64,000 nt of DNA from Euonymus europaeus (Eukaryota; Streptophyta; Magnoliopsida; Celastrales; Celastraceae). Positions within the stretch are counted from its first letter, which is position 1; each line of letters starts with the position of its first letter. The notes beneath the pieces are model-generated. The model saw only the letters and a program-made list of their open reading frames with translations, was not told the origin of the DNA and ran no database searches. The stretch spans positions 20,165,001-20,229,000 of the forward strand of contig OY756972.1 of the NCBI GenBank assembly GCA_963580455.1, read 5' to 3'. This document shows positions 19,243-64,000 of this stretch, in pieces. The position numbers were made by a program, and so were the translations under genes.

Positions 19243-22200
19243 TCATCTACTTTGTGGAACCTCAGCTGCTTCCAGAGTACTATATTGTTTCTGCAATGCA
19301 GGACTCATGCAAGAAAAGAGTGATGATGCCTTCTGTTGTCTTTGCTTTTTAAGCTTCACTCCGAACAAGAAAGACCGCAATGGTATTTTTGATCGAAGCG
19401 ATGAACTTCTGATATTTGAGTTTTGCTTTGATGCTGAAATCCCAAAGTCTTCATCCAGTTTTGCCAAGGTAGTCTCAAGATCGAGCTGCATTGCTCTCAC
19501 TCTATCAAGACCCGCGAGCAATTCATTTGTAACCTTCCTGTTTTCCTGTTTCATATTAAGAACCTCACCTTGAAACTTAGCTGCCTTGTATTCAGTGATC
19601 TCAGTCTTCTCTGGTCCATTGGAAACTCTTGATATCTCCTCTTGGATGCTCCACAAAGAATCATATCTGCCCTGCATTTCATCCTTCATTACTGAGTTGT
19701 TCTCCAGCCATAATGTTAGCTCAGTTTCTATCTCTCTCAAGTGCTTGTATATCGGCCTGGCAACTGAGATTAGCGACTCATTTTTACCACTTCCTTCTCG
19801 CTTCCTTCCATCCTTCAGTTGCAATAGCTCTGCTTTTAAATCATGGATTGAAGTTTGAAATTTCCTTATTTGATGGAAGGATGTGCTAAATCTTAACCAG
19901 AACTCTAGATTCTCTTCCAAAAGTTCGTCAATTTCTGAACGGAATTTTTCTTCTATAGGAGAAGGATCAGAATGGAAATGTTGTATCTTGGTCTCATGTT
20001 CTTCCTCTTTAGCAGACAGTGGTTGTTGATTCGAAGTTAGCGATGAAATGTTAGACTCTGGAGAGCTAGCAACTTGTGTTATGCTTTCAGGGGCTCCTTG
20101 CTGAAGCGAATGACGACTCCATTGTCCATCCATATTGATGTCGGGGGAGCTTTGTTTTCGTCGCAAGGACCTAATTTCCTCATCCCTCGTAGCAATGGCG
20201 TTCTTCAACTCCCTCATCTGCATTGCCAATTCAAAGAATCCATCACGGTTTTTCTTCTCAACATCAGCAAGCTTTTTCTTTACTTCCTTATAGTTATGGA
20301 GAACTGACGAATACTCCTCCACTAGAAGCTTCTCTCTGTCCTCTAACCCATTTAAGTACAGCTGCCTCCAGTTAGGTTGACCTTCTTCCTCTTCTATCCC
20401 CGTTTCCTCCAGCTTGGTATCAATACTACTAGCTTCCGTCCCACGCATGTCTTTCTTGTCATCGTTGTCATCTGACATTTCTATAAGGTTTTCGGACACA
20501 AAATCATGTTTAGTAATTAAGGGGTATGCAATCTCGTCCTCTCCTACACCTTTGACAGAATCACTGATTGAAGAAATTTGTTTGTTCTCTTCCTTCTCTA
20601 TCTTTGCATCTTGAGAGACCGTAGAGCCATCAGCAGGAGCCAGTTTATCTCTGCAGTTTTCGGCTTCGTCAACTGGCTTGGAACCAGGAGACACTTTCAT
20701 TTCCTGGAACAGCCCAACATTCTCAACCTCCTCATCCAGCTCCACATTGTGTAGTTTCCCAGACAAATGATCAATGTTGCACATTGCTTCAGTAAAATGC
20801 ATCCGAAGGTTGTTATTTTGGTCTTTGAAACTTCTGTTAAGACTTCTGACTCTTTGCAACTCCTCCTCCAACTCTTTTAGCTTCTTGTTCGTATTGTCTG
20901 AACCTTCAATTAGGCTCTCCTTGTCCTCTTCCAGGGTCTGAATATGTGCTTGGAGTTCATCTGTTTCTGTTCTTAATCTCTCAACCAAAGCAGCCTGTGA
21001 AGACACTGCAGTTTCCAAGGTAACAACCTTATTTACAAGTCCATCAATCTTTTCTGCCAGTTGCGAGACTGAGAGAATAGACTTTGATTCTACATCAAGC
21101 TGTTGCTCAATTTTCTTCCTTAAAAATTCTAGATCATGTTTCTCTGGTTCCTCACTGTTGATTTCTTGGCTAAAGTTAGCCAATTTAGGACTCTTGCACC
21201 GGGATTCAGCAACGGCCTCTTCCTTTTCTGTTTGCTTGGGAAGAAATTTTCTCCGGAGGGCTTGGAACTTCTCCTTGGCTTCCTGAGCTCTTTCGTTCTC
21301 TATTTCTGCCTTTTCAGCAGACTGTTCTTCTCTCTCTTTCAACTGGTTCAAGGTCTTCTTGCAAGACTTTAAAGCTGTTGACGCCATCAATGTTCGAGCT
21401 TCATTATCCTCAATTGCAGTACCAATACCAAACTCATCCTGTAAGCTACAAACTCTTCCTTGCATCTCAGTAATCTGGTTCTCAATTTCACAGAATTTCC
21501 CATATCCATGCTCATATGAACTCTTAACAAACTCCCTTTCAGTCTGTAATGCCAAAATTGCTTTCTGAACTCTATCAAGCTCCTCCAATGCCTCATTTTT
21601 CATTGGGCCAGAACTTGGAGTAGTAGCTGCTTTGGCAGTACTGGAGGCCCTCTTTAGCTGCTGTCCTTTTCTCGACAACAACATAGACGGACTCCTGAAG
21701 TCTTTCTTCATCACTGGAACTTTTGGGATTTTTGGCTTGGGAATTGTTTCAGATGGTTTGTCAACAATGTTGAAAGAAGTGGAAGTCGTCGAAAGATTTT
21801 GTTCATCTTCATCATCAATGGCAAACTGAACTTGTTCCGGATATACAGTCGCAATGGTTCGGTTGGCACTTTGAAGCTCTCTTGATAGGTGATCATATCT
21901 CTCAGCCAGTGCTCGGTAAGATCTGTAACATTCTTCGACATAGTTTATTAGTTCTGGCCTCTTTCTGTAGTACATTTCAGCTCTCTGAACAAATGAGTCC
22001 CCTTCATTGTTGATGATTGTGAGTGTTTCACCAACTCTCTCTTCCATATCTGTGAATTTCATAGTTTTGCAATCAAACATTACTACAATCTTCTGGTGTA
22101 TTATAATCAACAAATAATGGTTTCATGCTCTAACAATTCAGATTAAAAAGTTAACCCTAATTTTAGGGTTATCAAAGAAGTATCCTCATTATCTATCTCT

Positions 22201-32178: not shown

Positions 32179-32434
32179 TGAAAGCAGAACAAATTACAGA
32201 AGAAGAAAATGGAATCAAGTGATCAATTGATTCATCAGAAAGTTCTGTCGTTACAAGACCAGACCCAAAGCATAAAATAGTATCTACAAGAAGAAGCTAG
32301 AGAGCTATCAACGGGAAGAAAGGACAAGAAATCCAGACCCGTCTTATCAAGATCTAAAACAACGGATATAATTCAAATGAAACGATGTCGTGTGCTGTTA
32401 TTGTTACGACGTCGTAAAGGGCAGTGTCTTAACA
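32179..32434 (-). repeat. 3' LTR of copia element
   Basis: 256 bp. It contains a perfect 14-bp palindrome, TTACGACGTCGTAA (32404-32417), near the start of U3 in element orientation. The pol frame ends inside it. Confidence 0.93.
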
Positions 32435-35400
32435 CCCCTTCTCAAGCTGGATGTGGTTGAAGTATCTACCATATGCAGCTTGGACATGAAAAGATGTAAC
32501 TGAGCAGAAGACATAGCTTTGGTGAACATGTCAGCGGGTTGTTCAGAAGTTCGTATATGATGAAGCTGAATCAATTTCTTCTCCACCTTTTCTCTAACGA
32601 AGTGGCAATCAATTTCGATGTGCTTCGTTCTTTCATGATACACCGGGTTGGTGGCAATATGAATGGCAGCCTTGCTGTCACAGTAGACTGAGATAGGTTT
32701 CTTCACAGGATCTTGAAGTTCATTGAGGACAGCATTAATCCATGTTAATTCACTCGTTACTGAAGCTAAAGCTCTATACTCAGCCTCTGCAGAAGACCTT
32801 GAGACAGTTTGTTGTTTCTTTGATCTCCAAGCCACCAAGGCTTCTCCTAGCATTATGCTATAACCTGTGATGGATCTACGAGTGTCTTGGCATGCTGCCC
32901 AGTCAGCATCACTGAAGGCAGTGATGGTTTGAATTTTCCCATGAGGAAATAGCAGTCCTTGGCTTGTTGTTCCTTTCAGATATTTGAGAATTCTTTGGGC
33001 AGCTTTAAGATGTTGACTAGTAGGAATCTGCATGAACTGGCTAAGGGTGTTAACAGAGTATGTAATGTCTGGCCTAGTGATGGTCAGGTACATTAATTTC
33101 CCAACAAGTCTCCTGTACATCATGGCATTCTCCAGAGGCTTTCCTTGAGACATAGTCATCTTGGCATTCATATCCATTGGAGTGCTTATTTCTTTACAAT
33201 CCCTGAAATCAGTGTCAGACAACAAATCCACAATATATTTCTTTTGACATACTGTCAAGCCATTAGCACCTCTGCTAACCTCTAAACCTAGAAAATATTT
33301 TAATTCACCAAGATCTTTAATTTTGAAACAAAAAGCAATGTATTGCTTAACCCTTTTAATCAGAGAAGGATTGTTCCCTCCAATTGCCATATCATCAACA
33401 TATAAAAGTAATACAACTAAAGAAGTGTTTTGTTTGTAAACAAATAAAGAATAATCACATTTAGATTGCTTAAAACCAAACTTTACCAGACATTCTTTGC
33501 ACTTTGCATTCCACTGTCTGGATGCCTGCTTTAATCCATATATAGACTTGTTGAGTTTGCATACAAAACCTGCACTGTGAGTTTCATATCCAGGTGGCAT
33601 TTTCATGTAAATATCTTCTTCAAGATCACCATTTAAAAACGCATTGTGGACATCCAAATGATGGATAGTCCAGTCATTTGCAGCTGCCAAAGCCAGAAAT
33701 ATCCTTACCGTAACCATTTTAATTACAGGGGAAAAAGTTTCTGTGTAATCATAGCCATAGGATTGGCTGTAGCCTTGGGCTACCAGCCTGGCCTTGTATC
33801 TTTCCACAGATCCATCCGGATTATACTTAATCTTGTATATCCATTTGGATCCAACAGCCCTCCTACCTTTTGGTAATTTAACAATAGTCCAAGTGTTATT
33901 CTCATTCAAAGCCTTAACTTCATCATTCATTGCTTCACGCCAACATGCAGACTTACATGCTTCAATATGATTCTTTGGTTCATGATGTGATGCAATAGCA
34001 TTGAAAAAAACATGAGAAGCAAAATGAGTATGAGATGCAGGATGACTAATTATGCTATTACAGTCATAGTCTTTTAAATAAGAAGGCATGCTCCTTGTCC
34101 TTTTGGATTTATCACTTACATTCTTATTTGAAGTTTCATTAATTTGTTTACTGTAATCAGTGTCTCCAGAATGCAAAATACTATCTGTGACCATTTTGCC
34201 ATCCTTAAAAGGAAATTTGTTCTCATAAAATATAACATCTCTAGATACTAATATTTCATTGGTTTCTAGATCCATGAGTTTATAACCTTTAGTGTTGTAT
34301 GGATATCCTAGAAACACACACTTCCTAGCTCTTGGATCAAATTTAGAGCCTTGATGCCTTAAAATTTTTGCATAGCATAAACACCCAAAAACCTTAAGAT
34401 TCTCATAATTTGGTTTGGTGTTATATAAAATATGATAAGGACTTTTTTTATCAAGAATCCTAGAGGGCAATCTATTGATCAAGTGAACAGCAGTTAATAC
34501 ACAGTGGCTCCAATATTGCTCAGGTAAACTAGATTGAAGTCTTATGGCTCTACTCACATTAAGAATGTGCTGGTGCTTTCTTTCTACCACCCCATTTTGT
34601 TGGGGTGTGTAGGGGCAAGACTTTTGGTGCATGATTCCTTCCCTCTTAAAAAAATCTGTCATAGCAAATTCTGCACCATTATCAGTCCTTACTATTTTAA
34701 CTTTGGTATTAAACTGTGTTTTGACATAGACAATAAAGTTTTCAATGTGATCTCTAACTTCCGTTTTAGTTTTCATTAAAATGATCCAAGTTGCCCTTGA
34801 AAAATCATCTACTATTGTCAAGAAGTATTTAAAATTTTCTACAGAAGCAACTCCATTAGGCCCCCAGATATCAATATGCAAGAGATCAAAACATGAAACA
34901 GTTTTAGTTTGACTAACTGAGAAGGAACTTCTTTTTATTTTTGCCAAAGGACAAATGTTACATTCATTACATGTTCTTCCTATAATGGAAGGTAACATAT
35001 CAGCAATTCTAACAGAGGGATGGCCCAATCTGTTATGCCACAAAAAATCCTTCTCTACAGAACTAACAAAAGCTAATGTCTTCTTCTGGGGTTTTAAATC
35101 TTGAAGTAAGTAGTACAGACCATCACGCATGACTCCCATCCCATTCCTCTTCAATGTGATTGAGTCCTGTAATATACATGAAGTAGGAGTGAAGTTTAGG
35201 GTGACATTCAGGTCTGCAGCTAGCTTACTTATTGAAATTAGATTTAAATTGAAGTTTTTCACATAAAGAACTTCCTTTAAAATCAAGTTATTTCCCAGTT
35301 TAATGTCTCCTATTGAGTCTACTTTATATCTCTTACCATCAGGCAATGAAACAAAAGCATTGTTTACTTTTCTAGATGAATAGAAATAATCTATCATGCA

Positions 35401-36693
35401 AACTACATGATCTGAAGCTCCCGTGTCAAGTATCCAATTAGGAAAAAGAAAATTTGTACCTCCCACTGCAGAAGCTGAGGCTACACGGTTCTCTCCATTT
35501 GCAATGTTCGCCTTTAGAATGGCCAGAATCTGTTGGCACTGTTCTTGCATTGAGGATGACTGAGAGAGATTTTGTGTGTTGGAATCCACCTGATTCATAG
35601 AATGACTCCTTTTCTCAGAGAAATTAGATGATCCAGATGTTCCATGCCTCTGCTTCTTGGATGGATTTTCCATATCACTGGGATAGCCTACTAACTTGAA
35701 ACACTTATCAACCGTATGGTTGGTCTTCTTGCAATATTTGCAAAAAAATTTCTCCTTGTCTCCATAATTCCTTTTTCCTGATTTGAAGTCCTTTCCAGTG
35801 TTATTGTTAGCATTCCTTCCTGTGACTTGCATGGCAATTGAGTCTTGCATAGTCACCTCTTTCTTGTCATTTAGATCAACAGTAAATTTTCTTTCAACTT
35901 GACAAACTTGAGAAAAAGCTTTGCTGACATTTGGTAAAGGGTCCATGAGTAGTATTTGATTTGTAACATGTTGAAAACCATCCTCAAGACCCATCAGAAA
36001 TTGAATTAACTTGTCCTGGTTACGATCAGCTAGAGCATCTTCTTCTACTGTACAGTCACACCTACCACATCTGCATTTTGGTAGTCTCTTGTATTGATCT
36101 AGCTCATCCCATAGGGATTTGAGTCTAGCATAATACTCTGTGACAGATGAAGAACCCTGCTTGATGTTTGCAATCAGCCTGGCTAGTTCAAAAATTATAG
36201 CTGGATTTCCAGATGAGTACCTATTCTTCAGGTCTAGCTAAAGATCAAAAGCAGTTTTCGAAGTGGAGATGCTTACCAAGATGTCCTGGGACACGCAATT
36301 GGTTATCCAGGTTTTAACCAAGCTATCGCATTGGATCCAATCCTGGTATGTCGCATCACCTGTATTCGGCATCTTCAGCGTGCCATCAATAAAACAGATC
36401 TTGTTCCTAGCCCTCAACGCCGTTTCCAATTGATTGCTCCACAGATGGAAATTGCTCCCAGTCAAGATCAACGAAATTGGATTTGAGGCAAAATCAGAGT
36501 GGGTAAGATACAAAGGGTTTCGGAAAGGATTTATACTCTGATTCACCACCTGAGGATTACTTGACTGAGTGTTTTGAAAAAACGATTGAGGGTTTTGAAA
36601 ATTCTCCATGTGTGGAAGCGGAATGGCCAAAGAAGATGAAGGGTAGGTGTTAGAGCTTTGATTGGTGTAGTGATTGAATTTGTTATGGCCCAT
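32404..36693 (-). CDS. Copia gag-pol polyprotein frame with one internal TAG
   Basis: The frame starts at ATG 36693, runs open to a single TAG at 36238-36240, and continues in the same frame without interruption to 32404. Before the stop lies the gag N-terminus (NFHLWSNQLETAL). After it come, in order, a CCHC zinc knuckle (CKYCKKTNHTVDKC), aspartic protease (WILDTGASDHV) and integrase (HNRLGHPS, DDFSRATWI, RTDNGAEF). Reverse transcriptase (YVDDMAIGG) and RNase H (SDADWAACQDTRRS, SSAEAEYRAL) follow. All expected catalytic motifs are present, so the stop is the only visible lesion. It is either a point mutation or a leaky stop (TAG followed by CTA). Confidence 0.93.
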
Positions 36694-36703
36694 ATACGAC
36701 CTC

Positions 36704-36714
36704 CTCCGATACCA
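36704..36714 (-). other. Primer binding site of the copia element
   Basis: TGGTATCGGAG directly follows the 5' LTR on the minus strand. It differs by about one base from the common copia site TGGTATCAGAG. Confidence 0.8.
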
Positions 36715-36970
36715 TGAAAGCAGAACAAATTACAGAAGAAGAAAATGGAATCAAGTGATCAATTGATTCATCAGAAAGTTCTGTCGTTACAAGACCAGAC
36801 CCAAAGCATAAAATAGTATCTACAAGAAGAAGCTAGAGAGCTATCAACGGGAAGAAAGGACAAGAAATCCAGACCCGTCTTATCAAGATCTAAAACAACG
36901 AATATAATTCAAATGAAACGATGTCGTGTGCTGTTATTGTTACGACGTCGTAAAGGGCAGTGTCTTAACA
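36715..36970 (-). repeat. 5' LTR of copia element
   Basis: 256 bp, one mismatch to the other LTR. Transcription would run leftward on the minus strand. Confidence 0.93.
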
Positions 36971-41142: not shown

Positions 41143-48878
<7,736 letters not shown>

Positions 48879-49239: not shown

Positions 49240-50830
49240 ATAGAAGTCAAAGTCATAATTATACATAATTTTATGTGACTTCTATCCATAAATTTTATTT
49301 TTTTGTCATAAATGTCCCTCTCGTGTGGATCATTTTAAAAGGCTTAACCCTCCCTCTCCTCTCATTTTTGAATCACGATCTCTCTCTCATCTTCTCTGTA
49401 ACCACAAAAAAAGAGTAGATATTACACTGTTCTTGGGGGTGTTTAATTTTCTAGGTTATTTTTTTGCAAGAAAATGCACTGTTTTTGAGTTTATTACACT
49501 ATTGTGGTGGGTGGTTAATTTTTTGAGATTTTTTTTACAGAAAAATGCACTATTTTTTTGGTTTTTTACACTGTTGTGGTGGGGGGTGTTTGATTTTCTT
49601 GGATTTTTTTGCTAAAAAATGCATTTTTTTGAGTTTTATTACACTGTGTTTGGGGGTGTTTGATTTTCTATGTTTTTTTTGCACAAAAATGCATTTTTTT
49701 AGTTTATTACATTGTTCTAGGGGTGTTTATTTTTCTAGATTTTTTCTATAGCAATGCACTGTTTTTGGGTTTATTACACTGTTCTGGGCCTATTTAATTT
49801 TCTGGGCTTTTCTTGCAGGAAATGCATTATTTTTGCATTTGTTACACTGTTTTAGGGATGTTTAATGCTCTATTTTTAGGTTTTATTACATTGTTTTGGA
49901 GGTGTTTACTACACTGTTTTATCTGTTTTGATTTTTTTTTGAATATGTAATTATTTTTGGGTTTATTACACTTCTCTGAAGGTGTTTGATGAACTGTTTT
50001 GTTTTTGCAGGAAAATACATTATTTTTGGGTTTATTACACTGTTTTGGGTGGTGTTTAATATACTGTTTTTTACTATGTAAAAAAGACCTAACATATTGT
50101 GACAGATCGAGAAAAGTGTAATAAACGCTCAAACTATGTAATAAACTAACATTAAAATGTAATAAAAGACCCACAATAGTGTAATAAACAACCGATAATA
50201 TCGTCATAAGTCCATAATAATGTAATAAAAATACCCAGAATAGTGTAATAAACTTCTCAAAAAGTGTAATAAATGCTCGAACTATGTAATAAAACTCATC
50301 ATAACAATATGATTAGACCCAGAAAAATGCAATAAAACTGATAATATGCTGAACAATGTAATGAACCGCCATGAAAATGTAATAAAAGCTCAGAATAGTG
50401 TAATAAACTACCCATAATATCGTTATAAAAGCTCATAATAGTGTAATAAAAAGGCCTAGAATAGTGTAATAAACTTCTCAAAATACTATTATAAAGTTCT
50501 AGAACAGTGTAATAAGCTCCCTAATGAATAATGTAATAACGAACCGTTAAAAAAATAACGATAATCGAACTTGTTGGAAAGAATTTTGCATATTGATTCT
50601 AACTATGTAAAAAAACTTCGAATCTAACATTTATTTTTAGAGAAATCATTTTAAAAATTTGTTTAAAAAAGCAAAAAAACAAAAGAAAAGAAAAGTCAGT
50701 GTAATCATTTCAAAATTTTGATAATTTGAAACTTAACATCAATGTTCACGTGCATGTGTCATGAGAGGGGTATTTTTGTAACCAAAAAAAAATTTTGAAC
50801 ACACTTTCCATGTCACCATGTCTAATAATA
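49240..50830. mobile_element. Large foldback (FARE-like) element with repeat arms
   Basis: The left arm (about 49400-50060) repeats the word TTTATTACACTGTT, with 'ggggtgttta/gatttt', about eleven times with a period of 60-70 bp. The right arm (about 50095-50545) repeats its complement, GTGTAATAAAC, fifteen or so times. Outside the arms, GTCATAAATGTCCCTCTCGTG (near 49300) faces the reverse complement of CATGAGAGGGGTATTTTTGTAAC (near 50760). The whole thus forms one long imperfect hairpin. Open frames in it (49325-50481) come from the repeats and I reject them as genes. Foldback elements related to MULEs have this build; the family assignment is inferred. Confidence 0.65.
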
Positions 50831-56410: not shown

Positions 56411-56662
56411 ACTAGTACTAGATGCAAACTAATCCTTTGTATCGCATCTTCATTAACTAAATAATCTTCATTTTTAATAGAATAAAAAGTCCATATAAAG
56501 CACAAAAAATTCCTTTAAATAATAACAAAAATGAATGTGCTGTTCAAAACTTGAAGTTCTTCAAGGTGTTATATGGATACAAGTCCTTCCAAGCAACTAT
56601 ACGCCTTCTGCATCATTCACAGCTTCATTGAACGAGGCAGCAAGATATTCCGCAAGGCTTGG

Positions 56663-58667
56663 TTAAGAACTGGTCTTCTTAGGGGCTTCCGAAACACTCT
56701 CCTTCTTCATGCTGGTAGATTCTGGAAGCCGGGAATTTGAACAGCCGGGGGTATCTAAACCCTTCCATATAACAGGTTCCAAATGCTGCCATGGGTCTTC
56801 AATCATGGATTTGTCATAAAATAGTTCCGGCCCCAACGTACTGTCGGGTTGAGAACTGGTCTTCTTAGGGGCTTCCGAAACCCTCTCCTTCTTCATGCTG
56901 GTAGATTCTGGAAGCCGGGAATTTGAACAGCCGGGGGTATCTAAACCCTTCCATATAACAGGTTCCAAATGCAGCCATGGGTCTTCAACCATGGATTTGT
57001 CATAAAATCGTTCTGGCCCCAATGTACCATTGTCGGGTTGTGGTCCACGACCACGCCCTCTTTCTCTACTCCGTCCAGAACATGGGCTCATGCTGCTTCC
57101 AAGCCAGTGCCCTCTGCCTCTTCCTGAACTAGGACTACCTCCACGACCTGAAGCAGAATTTGGACTAGTCCCAAGCCAATTACCCCTGCTTTGCTCATGA
57201 TCTACTCCAGGGCCATACGCACCAGAATCGGGGGATACTGTGCTAGCTCCTGCATTAGATGGAAACCCATTATTAGGCATGCTCCCGGGTCTGTTCCAAC
57301 CTCCAGGTGTGGTTCCCCGATGCATAGGAAACGGACTGCCCATTCCACTGTAGCAAACAGGTCGTTTGTGTCTTTGATGAGGCGGATAATAGCTTTGTTG
57401 CACATGATGAGCGGGGGGGATCATTTCAGGTCTGTTCCAACCTCCAGGTGTGGTTCCCGGATGCACAGGAAATGGACTGCCCATTCTTGCTGGGCTTCTA
57501 TGAGAAGCAATGCCACTGTAGTAAACGGGTCTTTGGTGACTCGGATGAGGCGAAGAATAGCTTTGTTCCCCTCGATGAGCAGGGCGAGTCATTTCAGGAT
57601 TTATTGATCCTATTAAATCAGAGAGACAATAATCAAGATAAATATGCTCATCAACACAACTAAAACACGTAAAGCTGTCCTCCAACTGATTTTGTAGCAA
57701 TAACATTTCAAGTATATTTATGAAGAGCAAAGCCATTGCAGTGAACAGAGAGCCAAAATTCACGGTAAACATATGAAGGAAAATCTCACCAACACTAATG
57801 ACTAAACTAATGCCCATCTAGCTGTTTTTCAACTTATTTTGGAGCAATCATAAACACTTCAGGCATCATAGCAGCGAGAATGCAAATAAGACTAGACTTC
57901 AAGTATGTATGTATGTACAAAAATATAGTTCATGCGGCCAATATGATGCAGGAAAATAACTTACAGCGAGTTTATATTATTGTTAAAAGACCAGTTAGTA
58001 ATCTTAAGACGTCAAAACTTTCCTTATAAAAGAAGATACGGGACTCCTAAAGGATACTAATCACTGTGACAAGAACTAGACTTAAATAAATACCATAATA
58101 AATAACTAGTGATAACACCTATAAATATTAGTCTCAATTCTCAGTAGATCTGGAAATTGCGGCAATGCCCCAATTCTCAAAGGTCCAGAGCCTATATTGT
58201 TCTTAATTAACAATCAATACCTACCATATTATAAATCAATATGTAAACTTGATCAAGGAAATAGGTGCAGAAGACAAAATAGCATGCTGATACCAAATGG
58301 TTACATTATGGCACATGACCAAAATCAACAGCAACAATGTATTAATAAGAAATTCTACAAATATACACCATTAAAACACAACTCAATAGATCGTGATACC
58401 TTGCAATGAAGGTGAAAACCGTGTTTCAGGAGATCCGCTATGAATTGTAGGCGCTACATAAGCTTGAGCGATGTGGGTACTGGCCTTGTTCTTCTTGTTT
58501 GCTCTTCTTGACTCCTGCATCATTGTTGCAGCGGAGGTTTCGATCAAGGGATTCGAGAGGAACCCAGGTCCCATATAAGTTTCTACATGACTACAAAATT
58601 GCTTCTCGGCGGATGCTTCTATGCGCATTGCTTTCGATCTTTCGTTTCTTTCCTCTGAGGACTCCAT
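56663..58667 (-). CDS. SIC: SICKLE-like proline/glycine-rich protein, 404 aa
   Basis: Two coding exons: 58400-58667 (MESSEERNERSKAMRIEA) and 56663-57609. The splice joins CAAG/GA in phase; total 1215 nt. The N-terminal charged helix precedes a Pro/Gly/Ser-rich middle with repeated GTTPGGWNRP and GSPFP blocks and an SGRGRGHWLG, RG-rich segment. The C-terminus carries the family motif FYDKSMVEDPWLHLEPVIW, here present twice because of an in-frame tandem duplication. Known for Arabidopsis SICKLE (At4g24500): a nuclear protein needed for accumulation of some microRNAs and tied to spliced-intron handling. Arabidopsis SIC is about 320 aa, so this copy is longer, partly through the duplication. A 5'UTR intron (about 58684-59366) precedes the ATG. 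Confidence 0.85.
56666..57030 (-). repeat. In-frame tandem duplication of the SICKLE C-terminal motif
   Basis: Two copies of about 186 bp (56840-57025 and 56666-56839) encode TLGPE(R/L)FYDKSM(V/I)EDPW through EAPKKTSS. Only about five amino-acid changes separate them. The second copy carries the stop. Confidence 0.92.
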
Positions 58668-59415
58668 TTAGTAGCCAATCCTGCAAAGTTCAAAAACCAA
58701 CTTTTATCTTTTTCTGAATATAATTTTTTTTATTAAACAGAATCTAAAACTCTATAAGCAAATAAGCACCATGTTAAATTATAAGCATAACTGCCAGGTT
58801 GAAAAAAACCATTTATCATACACCTTGTCAGCGAATACCTCACACTGACAACAACGCACAATTGAACTGTTCTTTCAGACACAACTAAGAAAATAAAAAT
58901 AACATGACTGTTTGGATAGTAGGGTTTACTCTTGCTTATCCTTCCTCGCGTTGCTGCAAAAATAAAGGCAATTTGTGCATATGCCCACAATAAAGCAAAC
59001 AAAACGAGCTCTGAGAAAATTCCAAATTCTACGTTACTGTTTCTTCAATGTTTCGAATGCAAAATCATATCGCAGCGCATATCATAAAGGATTTCCAGCT
59101 TCGTTTCAAAAGAACAAAATTGAACACAGATCAAAACCCAATGTCCAATACAAAGTTCAATTTTTTTCCATACAAACACAGGATGAAAGACAAACAATCG
59201 AAAAAGTGAATATATTTCGTCACCGTATCAAACCATGCTTATTAGCAAATTGCAAACCTAGATATGCCCGTGAATGATTCATCGAAAGTACGAGTCGACC
59301 AAAAAAACTAGGTCTACAAGAATGTATAATCGAAAGAGGACGAGATATTATTACCGATGCACCTTGTGATTTGATTCGACGATATGCGTTGAAGACGAGT
59401 AAGCGACCTCCTTGA

Positions 59416-59883: not shown

Positions 59884-60215
59884 TCACCTTGCCACATTAA
59901 GCAAATGTTGGTGTTTTCTCTCAACAATACTATTTTGTTGAGGAGTTTCCACACATAAAGTTTGATGAATAATATCTAATGCAAAATAGAAAGTAGGCAT
60001 ATGGAATTCTGCACCATTATCACTTCTAAGAACTTGAATTTTGACATGAAATTGATTATGAAGAAGATGAACAAAAGATTGAAGAATGGAAGCAGTCTCA
60101 GATTTATATTTCAGCAGATAAATCCATGTACATCTAGTGTAGTCATCTACAATACTACCACCCAAAGAGACAGTAGATGAAGGTCCCCATATGTCTCAGT
60201 TCTCATGTTCCATAC
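59884..60215 (-). pseudogene. Ty1-copia integrase fragment
   Basis: The minus-strand frame encodes WGPSSTVSLGG, then DDYTRCTWIYLLKYKSE, VLRSDNGAEFH, and ETPQQNSIVERKHQHLLNVAR. This is the integrase catalytic core including the second Asp region and the Glu of the D-D-E triad. It has no LTR, protease or reverse transcriptase next to it. It directly abuts the SICKLE-derived end of the chimeric CPR locus, so it is part of the same rearranged patch. Confidence 0.85.
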
Positions 60216-60219
60216 TACG

Positions 60220-62790
60220 TCATACGTCTGCTGCATCCGCTTCGTGGGAGTCTAAGCTCTTCCATATGACAGGTACCAAATCCTGCCATGGGTCTTCAAT
60301 CATGGATTCGTGGTAAAATTGTTCTGGCCCCAATGTACAAGCAGATGAGTCATCCTCATCGAGAAGTATCCCATCCAACTCAGGCCACAGTGACTCCCTC
60401 CTACAAAATAATCAATACTATCAGTTAGTATATATAGGTTCTCTAATCTGAAAAATACCAGATATCAACTAGGACAAATTAGCAATTTCATATGCCATAC
60501 CAAGCAGAAAAATCATCCTCAATGCATTGGTCAGCATCGCCCAAACCAACTTCAATGAGACGCTTTGCACCTGCATCCACGACATATATACAAATTCCAG
60601 CATATAAAAGTCACCACCTCACAATCGAAAGGGAGAGCACTGAGCAGGAAAATCAAATTGTTTTTTCCATTCCAAATCTATTTTCGATCTTTTCCCAGCC
60701 TCCTGGGAAGGAGGATCAAAGAAAGGTAGCTGAACCAAAGGCGATACAAGGAAGACCATATTGCTTTTGCCATTCCAATCCCATGCAAAACAATGACAAT
60801 GTCTCTTCCTATAGATTAAGTAACTATTATGCAGAAACACCAAATCCCAACTTCAAATTCCAAACTAGTACACAGGTGGTGGCAATAAAAATCACATCAA
60901 TCATAGGTTCACCAAAAACAATAAGAAATAACTAGTACAGAAATATACACTAGAAAACAGATAACTCAGGATACCACCCATCAGTAATTCCAATAAAAAC
61001 CTAAATCCAAAGTCCATTTAACAATTGAGAGAACTGAAAGTCAGAAACAGAACACCACATAGAGAGGACAATTGCAAAGAGAAAGATGCATACCTTGTTC
61101 AGAAAGTTGTTCGTCAACCACTTTTGCAATCTAAATTCAACATAGTGCCACCAGAATATGACAGTAAATTGGGAATAGCAACCAAAATAAGTTCATGGAA
61201 AAAATAAATTACGAAAACTGGTGATATTACCTTGTTAAAATGTTCATACTGACGATTACCCAAGCCAAAGACTCCATAGCTGAGCTGTTGAAGCCAATCT
61301 CCCCTTTCACCTCCCTGAAATAAAGCAAATCACCCATTTAAGAAAAACACAAAACTGGAACTAAAAGGCCTATGAAATGCCAATTCAGAATCTAATTCTA
61401 TTGTCATTGATTCATGACAGAGTTTCAACCTCTGTAAACCACTTGTAAAATCCAGTAGCATCATCAGTGGGCTCCCCATCTCCATACCTACAATTCAGGG
61501 ACAAATACATATAATAACCCATCCTTCTCAAAATCCAAATACATAGCTAAAAACAACAAAGTGCACTTAAACGCAAATGTTTATCTTACGTGGCAACCAT
61601 GAAAAAGGCCAACATCTCTTTCTTTAGTTTTTCTTCGTATTCATCATCATCCCCAGCATAATTGTCCTAATAAGAATCCATGAACAATATGAACAAACCT
61701 AAAAGTACAACCTAAAGAGCCATATTTTGATGTACCGATCCAATGTCATACCATATCAACAACTTTGACTGCAGCTTTCTCATATCTTGCCTTGGTCTCT
61801 TCAGCTAAAGCCTGTGACACAATTAAGAAAGAACCTACATGATTAAAAATATAGCAAATAAAAAAAATAGCCGATCCAAAAACAAAGTAATCAGCACCAA
61901 GGATCTTGGTATTGCTGCTTTTCTTGCTGCCATACGCGTGCATGATCTAAATGTTCGTTCTTAAGTAACAATGTGATTCTAAAGCATGTCGTTAACCTGT
62001 TGCTGTTTTCGTAATGCGAATCTGGCAGCGTAAATGAAAATATCATTCATGATGTAATTGCCCCTATATCTTCTAAATCATTGTATTTGGGTTGCACCCC
62101 CTTGATGCCCTTTAAATCTGTTTTCTTATTCCCTAAAAAACAGTCTTAACTACGTTTTCCAACAACTGATTTTCATTCGCGGATTGCAACAAGACTGCTA
62201 TTTCATATTCAGCATACGAGTAAAACCTAACTCCAAGAACTCTGTAAAGGATACAACACAGAGATGCCAATTGTAGGAATAATGCTATATGGCAGTCATG
62301 CCGCATGCAGCAAACTATTGACATATTAGGCCCAAAACAACTAAGAACAATGGCTCACTTGGCACAACTTGATGGAAAAATTCATAGAGATGATAATCAG
62401 AGCATAAATAGATGACAAACCTAAAATTGACAATGCATTTCCATCTCCCCATCCCAATATTGAAATGGAAAAAACAATCTACCTTTACAAATACAACACG
62501 ACAAAATCAAAATCTAGGCAGATCAAACGACATACCTTAGCGAATCTCTGGCACGTGTCATGGAAGATGGTGACGATGGCCTTGCTGGAGGCTGCCTCGG
62601 CATCGTTCTTGACGACAGAAAGTGGCTTCGGCATGAAAACTGGCTTCACCTCCCCGCTCCGATCCCATGATTTCTTCCAGAAGCACATAAAAATCACGAT
62701 GATTATGGCCAGACAAATCGTTGCCACCATAGAGTCTGACACCAAACTAAAAGTTGGAGAGTTCAGAGTATTTGAGTTGAGAACTTTCAT
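60220..62790 (-). CDS. Chimeric gene: LTR start + CPR exons 1-8 + SICKLE tail, 273 aa
   Basis: Eight exons: 62536-62790, 61752-61811, 61590-61666, 61430-61487, 61231-61314, 61094-61130, 60501-60570 and 60220-60400. They total 822 nt, open to TGA at 60220. Exons 2-7 have exactly the sizes of CPR exons 2-7, with intact GT..AG sites. Intron similarity shows DNA duplication, not retroposition. Residues 1-13 ([13 protein letters not shown]) come from the adjoining copia LTR. A CPR anchor ([18 protein letters not shown]) and FMN-domain parts ([25 protein letters not shown]) follow. Within exon 8, DEDDSSAC passes in frame into [18 protein letters not shown], the SICKLE C-terminal motif. The FMN phosphate loop is shortened to [10 protein letters not shown], so FMN binding is doubtful. 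There is no FAD/NADPH half. Expression is unknown; it may be a new gene or an unbroken pseudogene. Confidence 0.7.
60243..60342 (-). repeat. Third copy of the SICKLE C-terminal motif
   Basis: About 100 bp matches 56745-56845 and 56930-57030. It encodes [20 protein letters not shown] before diverging to a new ending (SHEADAADV). Confidence 0.88.
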
Positions 62791-62995
62791 TCAATAATAA
62801 AATAATAATACAACCTCAGCTAGCTAAATAGGCAACAAGAAAAGGACCGTTGAGTTAAAGGTAACAGAGATAATACAAGTACATAATATAGTCGTTTGAA
62901 GTCTGCACATAGTCTGCACAAGAGCATAGGTCTGAGAGTAAACATGACTAGGATATATCTAAAGGTTAGGTCTTTTGACCAGTGGTTTCTATACG
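62755..62995 (-). repeat. Probable 3' LTR of the right-hand copia element
   Basis: On the minus strand the pol frame is followed by a G tract (CTTGCGGGGGCG), then about 240 bp without coding potential, ending in TATTATTTTATTATTGAATG and CTCTGAACTCTCC, an AT-rich U5-like end. It meets CPR-derived sequence near 62743-62755. The other LTR lies beyond the window, so ends cannot be confirmed. Confidence 0.55.
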
Positions 62996-64000
62996 CCCCC
63001 GCAAGATCAGGGTGCCGTCAAGCAAGCTGATCTTGTCTTTGAGAAGAAGAAAGCGTTGTCGTGGAAGGGCCTTAGTGAGCAAGTCAGCAAGCTGGTGCAC
63101 AATGGAGATATGTCGAACAGTAAGAACATGTTTCTGAACCAGATCGCGCAGAAAGTAAATGTCGATAGCAATATGCTTCATTCGGGAGTGCAAAACGGGA
63201 TTCATACTTAAGCGCGTAGCCCCAAGATTGTCACATAATAATAAAGGATTTCGAGGAAGTGGAACATGAAGCTCATGGAGAAGTTGAGTAATCCATACAA
63301 CTTCTGAGGCAGTAGCAGCCAGAGTACGATACTCGGCTTCAGTGGAAGATCGCGCAATGGCCCTTTGCTTTCTGGAGCGCCAAGAGATTGGGTTAGAGCC
63401 AAGGAAAACAATATAGGAGGTGATAGATGGCCGATCATCAGGATTACCAGCCCAATCAGAATCTGAGTAGGCTTTGAGGACATGATTGGGGGTGGAGTGA
63501 TAAATGAGACCATGATGAAGAGTGCCTTTGAGGTAACGAAGTAGGCGTTTCAGAGTAGACCAGTGAGCAGTTGTAGGTTTAGCAAGGTATTGGGCTAGAC
63601 GATTGACAGCATAACTGATATCTGGACGTGTCAAGGAGAGATATTGAAGACTTTCGACTAGCTAACGGTATAAGGTGGGAGCTGACAAAGTGTTACCACA
63701 GTGTTGAGAGAGACTGAATGAGGAAAGAAGAGGTGTGTCAGCGGACTTGGCACCAAGCATATTTGCACGATCCAAAAGCTCACGGATGTATTTGTGTTGA
63801 CAGAGGAACAACTAATCATGGGTGCGAACTGCTTCAATCCCCAAAAAATAGGAGAGATCTCCTAGGTCTTTAAGAGAAAACTTGGAGGCCAACACATGAG
63901 TAACTCTGTGAATAAAGTCAAGATTGGAAGCAGTAAGGATGAGATCATCTATGTAAACAAGAATGTATGTAATAATCGAACCAGAATGATAAATAAATAA
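62966..64000 (-). pseudogene. Ty1-copia pol (RT C-terminus and RNase H), broken, runs off window
   Basis: The open part, 62966-63634, encodes TRPDISYAVNRLAQYL, SDSDWAGNPDDRPSI, RSSTEAEYRTLA, CDNLGATRLSMNP and KHIAIDIYFLRD, the copia RNase H core and connection. Upstream the same frame has stops at about 63662 (TAG before CTA) and 63812 (TAG), with continuing RT-like sequence between (CQHKYIRELLDRANMLGAKS). It is a different family from the 32-37 kb element. The 5' part is outside the window. Confidence 0.88.

Follow-up and report, generated by a model that had tools for sequence, protein, structure and literature searches.

A probable decaying duplicate of NADPH-cytochrome P450 reductase, fused to a SICKLE-type tail and split by a copia element, in Euonymus europaeus

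The locus described here is probably an unprocessed, decaying tandem duplicate of the NADPH-cytochrome P450 reductase (CPR) gene, which was truncated, fused to SICKLE-derived sequence and split by a copia element, rather than a working LTR-CPR-SICKLE gene. The lesions by which an unprocessed pseudogene is recognised were found at its 5' end: native codon 5 reads as a stop, and exon 1 is interrupted by an insertion of 4.8 kb. The window, i.e. the whole stretch of 64,000 nucleotides that was analysed, corresponds to C16:20165001-20229000 in an assembly of 443 Mb and 30 contigs, and positions are given in window count unless preceded by a contig name.

Composition of the open frame

The open frame on the minus strand (62790-60220) was shown to consist of eight exons totalling 822 nt, i.e. 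273 codons with a terminal stop and no internal stop. Re-reading thus bore out an earlier note on this DNA, which had described 822 nt without a stop and CPR sequence joined in frame, inside exon 8, to a SICKLE motif and stop codon. Its statement that both parental genes lie in the same window also proved correct (CPR at 48878-41143, and a SICKLE-type gene at 56.6-59.4 kb). It had further described the first eight CPR exons as duplicated with all splice sites and phases intact. All 14 splice sites (14/14) indeed exhibit a GT donor or an AG acceptor, and exons 1-7 have the same intron phases as those of the parent CPR; the duplication itself is less complete than described, as exon 1 is partial and only ~61 of the 192 nt of CPR exon 8 are present. 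The CPR/SICKLE joint within exon 8 is blurred by a short imperfect match. The features of the locus and its surroundings are listed in Table 1.

Table 1. Positions of the chimera, its parental genes and neighbouring elements (window count)
Feature	Positions	Strand	Remarks
Copia element, in-window part	62748-64000	-	Runs on to C16:20232590 (= position 67590)
3' LTR, 246 bp	62993-62748	-	Holds in-frame ATG at 62790
Target-site duplication GTTTG	62747-62743	-	Other copy 67591-67595, beyond the window, at end of native exon-1 stub
Open exon 1 of chimera	62790-62536	-	Residues 1-14 from copia 3' LTR (62790-62748), rest CPR-copy exon 1 from native codon 22/23
CPR-copy exon 2	61811-61752	-	
CPR-copy exon 3	61666-61590	-	
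CPR-copy exon 4	61487-61430	-	TYGDGEPTD loop retained
CPR-copy exon 5	61314-61231	-	A conserved 11-residue CPR motif retained
CPR-copy exon 6	61130-61094	-	
CPR-copy exon 7	60570-60501	-	
Chimera exon 8, whole	60400-60220	-	CPR part and SICKLE-derived tail
CPR part of exon 8	60400-60340	-	About the first 61 nt of the 192-nt CPR exon
SICKLE-derived tail of exon 8	60339-60220	-	MPLKIP motif aligned 60243-60338; stop TGA 60220-60222
Copia-type integrase fragment	60195-59884	-	103-aa open piece, rve 2.7e-5, below cut-off; directly 3' of chimera stop
SICKLE-type gene SICa	56595-59404	-	Extent by similarity to another copy
Parent CPR	48878-41143	-	18 exons, 690 aa, intact, ends in DVW

The CPR copy is 86.1% identical to its parent when exons and introns are compared together (1,709 nt). 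Introns 1-7 of the copy align with those of the parent, introns 1 and 6 with large gaps, indicating that the parental introns were kept; a retrocopy origin was rejected on this ground. When 8,000 candidates were scored in a protein search with the parent CPR, its nearest relatives by identity were from Tripterygium wilfordii (93%, full-length) and then Theobroma (85%) among the best 120 of 4,499 matches. A second CPR, on C6, has open exons 1-8 with GT/AG sites. The C6 paralog apart, no second copy of CPR exons 9-18 was identified in the window or in flanking loci L010, L011, L012 and L014. Degenerate tandem repeats were observed upstream of the parent CPR (49420-50515), and a frame with NET2A and KIP1 domains is located at 19246-22113 on the minus strand.

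With plant NADPH-cytochrome P450 reductases, the chimera shares the structure and phases of exons 1-7, a hydrophobic stretch as putative anchor, the TYGDGEPTD loop and the 11-residue motif; unlike them, it lacks the FMN phosphate loop, the connecting, FAD and NADPH parts, and the native start. The FAD and NADPH domains are missing because CPR sequence stops within exon 8. Relative to the parent, exon 1 of the copy has gaps of 6, 6 and 12 nt, and the 12-nt gap together with substitutions deletes the FMN phosphate loop (16 parental residues, compared with 12 in the copy). In a fungal CPR, the FMN phosphate is described as being contacted by Ser65, Thr67 and Thr69 (PMC6934812), residues that would correspond to the loop deleted here. 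In the copy, the Flavodoxin_1 match begins only at position 9 of the profile, compared with position 1 in the parent, and is still well above the cut-off (96.9 versus 25 bits). An 18-residue hydrophobic stretch, as judged by eye, persists in exon 1 of the copy and may represent the membrane anchor.

The copia insertion in exon 1 and the LTR start codon

A complete copia element of 4,843 bp (62748-67590) was shown to sit inside exon 1 of the CPR copy. Its two 246-bp LTRs exhibit five differences (K2P 0.0206), and the LTR is repeated outside the window at C16:20232335-20232591, where the adjoining sequence corresponds to the 5' end of CPR exon 1. When the empty site was rebuilt by joining the flanks, it aligned through exon 1 with both the parent CPR and the C6 copy. 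In the part of the element beyond the window, Retrotran_gag_2, gag_pre-integrs and RVT_2 scored above the cut-off, and rve below it (26.5 versus 32.6 bits). Paired LTRs, a target-site duplication and copia domains, by which a copia LTR retrotransposon is recognised, were all present, with rve alone sub-cut-off. The best frame of the element, non-coding ends included, contains 11 stops. The locus therefore resembles other copia insertions in exons in its two LTRs, its 5-bp target-site duplication and the order of copia gag and RVT_2, but differs from an ordinary one in that the 3' LTR places an in-frame ATG ahead of the severed gene. At assumed substitution rates of 1.3e-8, 7e-9 or 2.5e-9 per site and year, the observed LTR divergence corresponds to an insertion age of 0.8, 1.5 or 4.1 million years, respectively.

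The earlier note had read the gene as starting in a copia LTR. An LTR is indeed present at the 5' end of the chimera, but it is the 3' LTR of a whole inserted element that severs exon 1. The apparent LTR start is thus what an insertion behind codon 22 left in the gene, and it was hidden by the window end, past which the second LTR and the exon-1 stub lie. The 22 codons with which the native CPR copy began are located 4.8 kb away, behind the element and outside the window. Codon 5 of this native stub is a TAG stop, and no further ATG occurs in this frame before that of SDSM, on the downstream side of the element.

The ATG at 62790 is no random one: its counterpart in the 5' LTR begins a 641-aa frame of the element, in which copia gag domains are encoded; in the 3' LTR, the same ATG reads in frame into the CPR copy. 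With three mismatches allowed, the ATG site was found in 10 of 12 LTR-type loci, of which eight (including both LTRs of the inserted element) carry ATG and two (L016 and L017) carry ATA. The gag match begins at residue 86 of the 641-aa frame, which has later methionines at residues 15 and 34, and gag translation of the element may start at the LTR ATG or at either of these. A second copia element in the window (32179-36970, minus strand), with 256-bp LTRs that exhibit a single difference (99.6% identity) and an open frame of 1,196 aa, is a very recent insertion.

The SICKLE-derived tail

The tail of the chimera was recognised as Pfam MPLKIP (2.9e-7; 31.0 bits, compared with a cut-off of 28.9), and a genome-wide Pfam search gave 32.7 bits for the same domain. 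It shares the motif FYxxSMxEDPW and the terminal DAADV with the SICKLE / MPLKIP (TTDN1) family, from which it differs in its length of only ~37 residues, the absence of a proline-rich body, the loss of ~42 codons and charge changes in the motif. These codons are missing before the SICKLE end, where the stretch ahead of DAADV has 46 residues in the copy designated SICc and four here. The last 16 nt of SICKLE are kept at 60222-60237 (GATGCAGCAGACGTAT), encoding DAADV plus the initial base of the stop codon, as in SICc and SICb. Only pieces of the end of the last SICKLE exon are present in the chimera. The Arabidopsis SICKLE protein is described as single-copy and proline-rich, and as interacting with DBR1 in lariat RNA breakdown (PMC10315293).

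Six MPLKIP stretches were identified in the genome by Pfam, i.e. those of SICb (with one internal stop), SICc, the fusion and the C12 copy, and two in SICa. The 96 nt past the joint are 85.4% identical to both repeats of SICa, and tail similarity was 86% to the copy at C16:20240500, 84% to that at C16:20147098 and 83% to the C12 copy. From the five other tail sequences (four gene copies, with SICa represented twice), the fusion tail differs at 12-16 of 87 sites; the C16 tails differ mutually at 2-10 and from C12 at 9-11 of these sites. These distances suggest either that the tail donor is none of the SICKLE copies compared or that the tail evolved fast.

The SICKLE copies are themselves variable. 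SICa contains a 186-bp in-frame tandem duplication (56663-57817, minus strand), resulting in two MPLKIP motifs that are ~95% alike, and has TAA where other copies have CAA, 22 codons before their end. A 6.1-kb segment with a SICKLE copy is present twice, ~93 kb apart and with 97.8% identity (L012 2314-8442 and C16:20237763-20243845, the latter in L010/L011); the L012 copy has a TAA stop in place of TGG inside the MPLKIP motif region, and the C12 copy exhibits a one-base shift after the motif. The parent CPR and the CPR copy are each located ~7.7 kb from a SICKLE copy. Duplication of a SICKLE-CPR unit was nevertheless unsupported, as, at the thresholds used, nothing is common to the two spacers beyond the exon-1 stub and what remains of a promoter (70% over 176 nt).

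Downstream of the chimera stop, no SICKLE 3' flank was recognised at 59884-60195, the interval occupied by the integrase fragment. This fragment was rejected as a piece of the inserted element; among the sequences compared, its sole match other than itself was the second copia element of the window (64% over 194 nt).

Selection, proposed history and competing readings

The C6 paralog served as outgroup for assigning substitutions to branches by parsimony, after removal of 10 codons with ambiguous sites and of gapped codons. Ks was 0.32 between copy and parent, 0.29 between parent and C6 and 0.40 between copy and C6; the outgroup is insecure, as these values fail to place C6 clearly outside, while the introns put the copy nearer to the parent. 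On the copy branch, amino-acid-changing and silent substitutions (N:S) were 28:8 in exon 1, native stub included, where gap-rich codons push up the former count, and 11:14 in exons 2-8 (p = 0.014 for the difference between the two regions). The parent branch exhibited 7.5:10.5 with all of exons 1-8 counted. The synonymous share expected under neutrality (0.245) was exceeded in exons 2-8 (14/25, p = 7e-4) and not in exon 1 (p = 0.85). In the tail, six altered amino-acid codons (~7 changes) and three silent changes are specific to the fusion (p = 0.71 for 3/10). Comparison of Ka/Ks in exons 1-8 with the parent, which the earlier note had put forward as a check, gave 0.31 overall; values were 0.14 in exons 2-8 and 0.47 in exon 1 past the insertion, but 2.99 in the short stub, which has a single silent change.

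On the copy branch, the substitution rate was 0.058 in exons 2-8 (p = 0.55) and 0.142 in exon 1 (p = 4e-6), compared with 0.051 in introns; on the parent branch, it was 0.020 in exons 2-8 (p = 0.002) and 0.033 in exon 1 (p = 0.25), compared with 0.053 in introns. For exons 2-8 of the copy, N:S and the exon/intron rate thus give conflicting signals on constraint. Fourteen changes fell on ~90 silent sites of this branch, compared with 82 on 1,622 intron sites. The silent sites of copy exons 2-8 have accordingly changed at ~3 times the intron rate, and 10 of 13 listed silent codon changes are from A/T to G/C. Divergence between copy and parent is 2-9% in introns 2-5 and 14-15% in introns 1, 6 and 7 (140 of 1,210 intron sites and, in intron 6, 72 of 496). 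Exons 4-6 with their introns (61042-61500, compared with 46844-47300) are 93-95% like the parent, above the remainder, and may represent a conversion tract. Gene conversion by the parent around exons 2-6 may have contributed to the signal in exons 2-8.

In a frame-survival simulation based on intron substitution and indel rates, the probability that the frame stays intact throughout the copy branch (678 exonic nt) under neutrality was 0.00125, and pure neutrality since duplication was rejected. Since the copia insertion (0.0103 per site), the same rates gave a probability of ~0.24; the insertion is young, and frame survival since then is therefore uninformative. The argument of the earlier note that a neutral fusion would lose its frame accordingly applies to the whole life of the duplicate (~0.001 survival), but not to the period after the insertion. 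Given the sizes of intron gaps, the chance that all exon-1 gaps are multiples of three was 0.016. Frame survival, gaps in threes and the synonymous excess in exons 2-8 make some past selection on the CPR copy likely, while exon 1 and the SICKLE tail look unconstrained.

Unprocessed (duplicated) pseudogenes and chimeric genes that arise by deletion between neighbours are both established kinds of locus. The chimera shares with them its retained introns, same-strand donors, truncation, 5' stop and a transposon in an exon, and differs from them in that its remaining frame is open and its splice sites are intact. In the proposed history, CPR was first duplicated in a C16 stretch that holds several SICKLE copies, as homology including introns shows. 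Exon 8 of the copy would then have become joined to the final exon of a same-orientation SICKLE copy, through deletion or illegitimate joining, with loss of exons 9-18 and fusion of the two frames, a mechanism suggested by the same-strand neighbours and the short imperfect match at the observed joint. The remaining steps may have come in another order than that given here. Deletions took away the FMN phosphate loop and other pieces of exon 1, and the greater part of the SICKLE end was lost; the copia element, as evidenced by its target-site duplication and LTR divergence, integrated behind native codon 22, some 0.8-4 million years ago at the rates assumed above; and the stop at native codon 5 arose either before or after that insertion. 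That the downstream frame is still open would be due to constraint on the copy during part of its existence, to full release only in recent times, and to some luck in addition; an LTR start would fall in frame with a one-in-three chance. Any transcription today would most likely proceed from the LTR, and the predicted product would be a short protein with a membrane anchor, for which normal FMN binding is not expected and from which the electron-donor half is missing. The membrane-anchored, FMN-domain-like protein with an RNA-processing tail proposed in the earlier note is, from its sequence, a possible translation product.

Some observations count against decay. Frame survival, in-frame gaps and the 14/25 synonymous changes fit a constrained past and equally a gene still in use, and exon 1 is a weak witness for decay, as no significant slowing relative to introns is seen in the parent's own exon 1 either. 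We regard it as unlikely that the CPR-SICKLE fusion functioned as a gene until the copia element arrived, selected as a truncated FMN-domain-like protein and only now dying. The N:S of exons 2-8 and the in-frame gaps are consistent with such a past, and the fusion could be old, as its tail divergence is similar to that of the copy-parent introns. However, the tail changes are mostly amino-acid changing and include charge changes in the motif, exon 1 is neutral-like, the phosphate loop is lost and native codon 5 is a stop; an earlier full-length phase or, given the low divergence of introns 2-5, conversion by the parent could account for the signal in exons 2-8. It appears slightly less probable again that the locus is a new LTR-driven gene, in which the 3' LTR provides promoter, leader and start codon for a 273-aa protein with a 14-residue gag tag, an ER anchor, an FMN-less flavodoxin fold and a motif of a DBR1 partner. 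An ATG that opens the gag frame in the 5' LTR and, in the 3' LTR, is in frame with the CPR copy, intact frame and splice sites, an MPLKIP motif above the cut-off and the low N:S of exons 2-8 would all suit such a gene, yet the selection signal predates the arrival of the LTR, survival of the frame since then carries no information, exon 1 and the tail are neutral-like, the real gag start may be a later methionine, and two LTR-type loci have ATA at this site. We hold it more doubtful still that the 3' LTR rescued a truncated CPR-SICKLE fusion as an expressed gene, whose ER-anchored product, an FMN-less flavodoxin fold with the SICKLE/MPLKIP motif, might tether DBR1 or DBR1 partners to the membrane or serve as a CPR decoy towards P450s.

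Nor was an annotated relative seen, as none of the best 120 of 162 protein matches to the chimera has an MPLKIP domain. Two of the listed matches (P0002 and P0075) cover 90% of the query, and P0002 (Camellia) represents a truncated CPR with the phosphate loop. Among the papers listed, no title or opening of an abstract mentions a CPR-SICKLE fusion, although this is a weak test, the papers being in part unrelated medical ones. An assembly error that joined CPR copy, SICKLE tail and LTR is very improbable: repeats and near-identical SICKLE copies (the 6.1-kb segments) do lie nearby, but an exact 5-bp target-site duplication flanks both sides of the element, copy-specific substitutions are spread over exons and introns, and the tail differs from every other tail compared, which argues against a collapse.

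The decaying tandem duplicate that we favour represents a worked example of how a duplicate cluster, a deletion and a young retrotransposon can yield a frame that resembles a gene of three parts. It also shows that a decisive lesion may escape notice when it lies just past the end of a sequence window. Were the frame expressed, it would provide an unusual case of an LTR-supplied start codon for a new membrane-anchored chimera. As the LTRs are only 2% apart, individuals with and without the copia insertion may still exist, and if both kinds of allele persist, cause and effect of the insertion would be directly testable.
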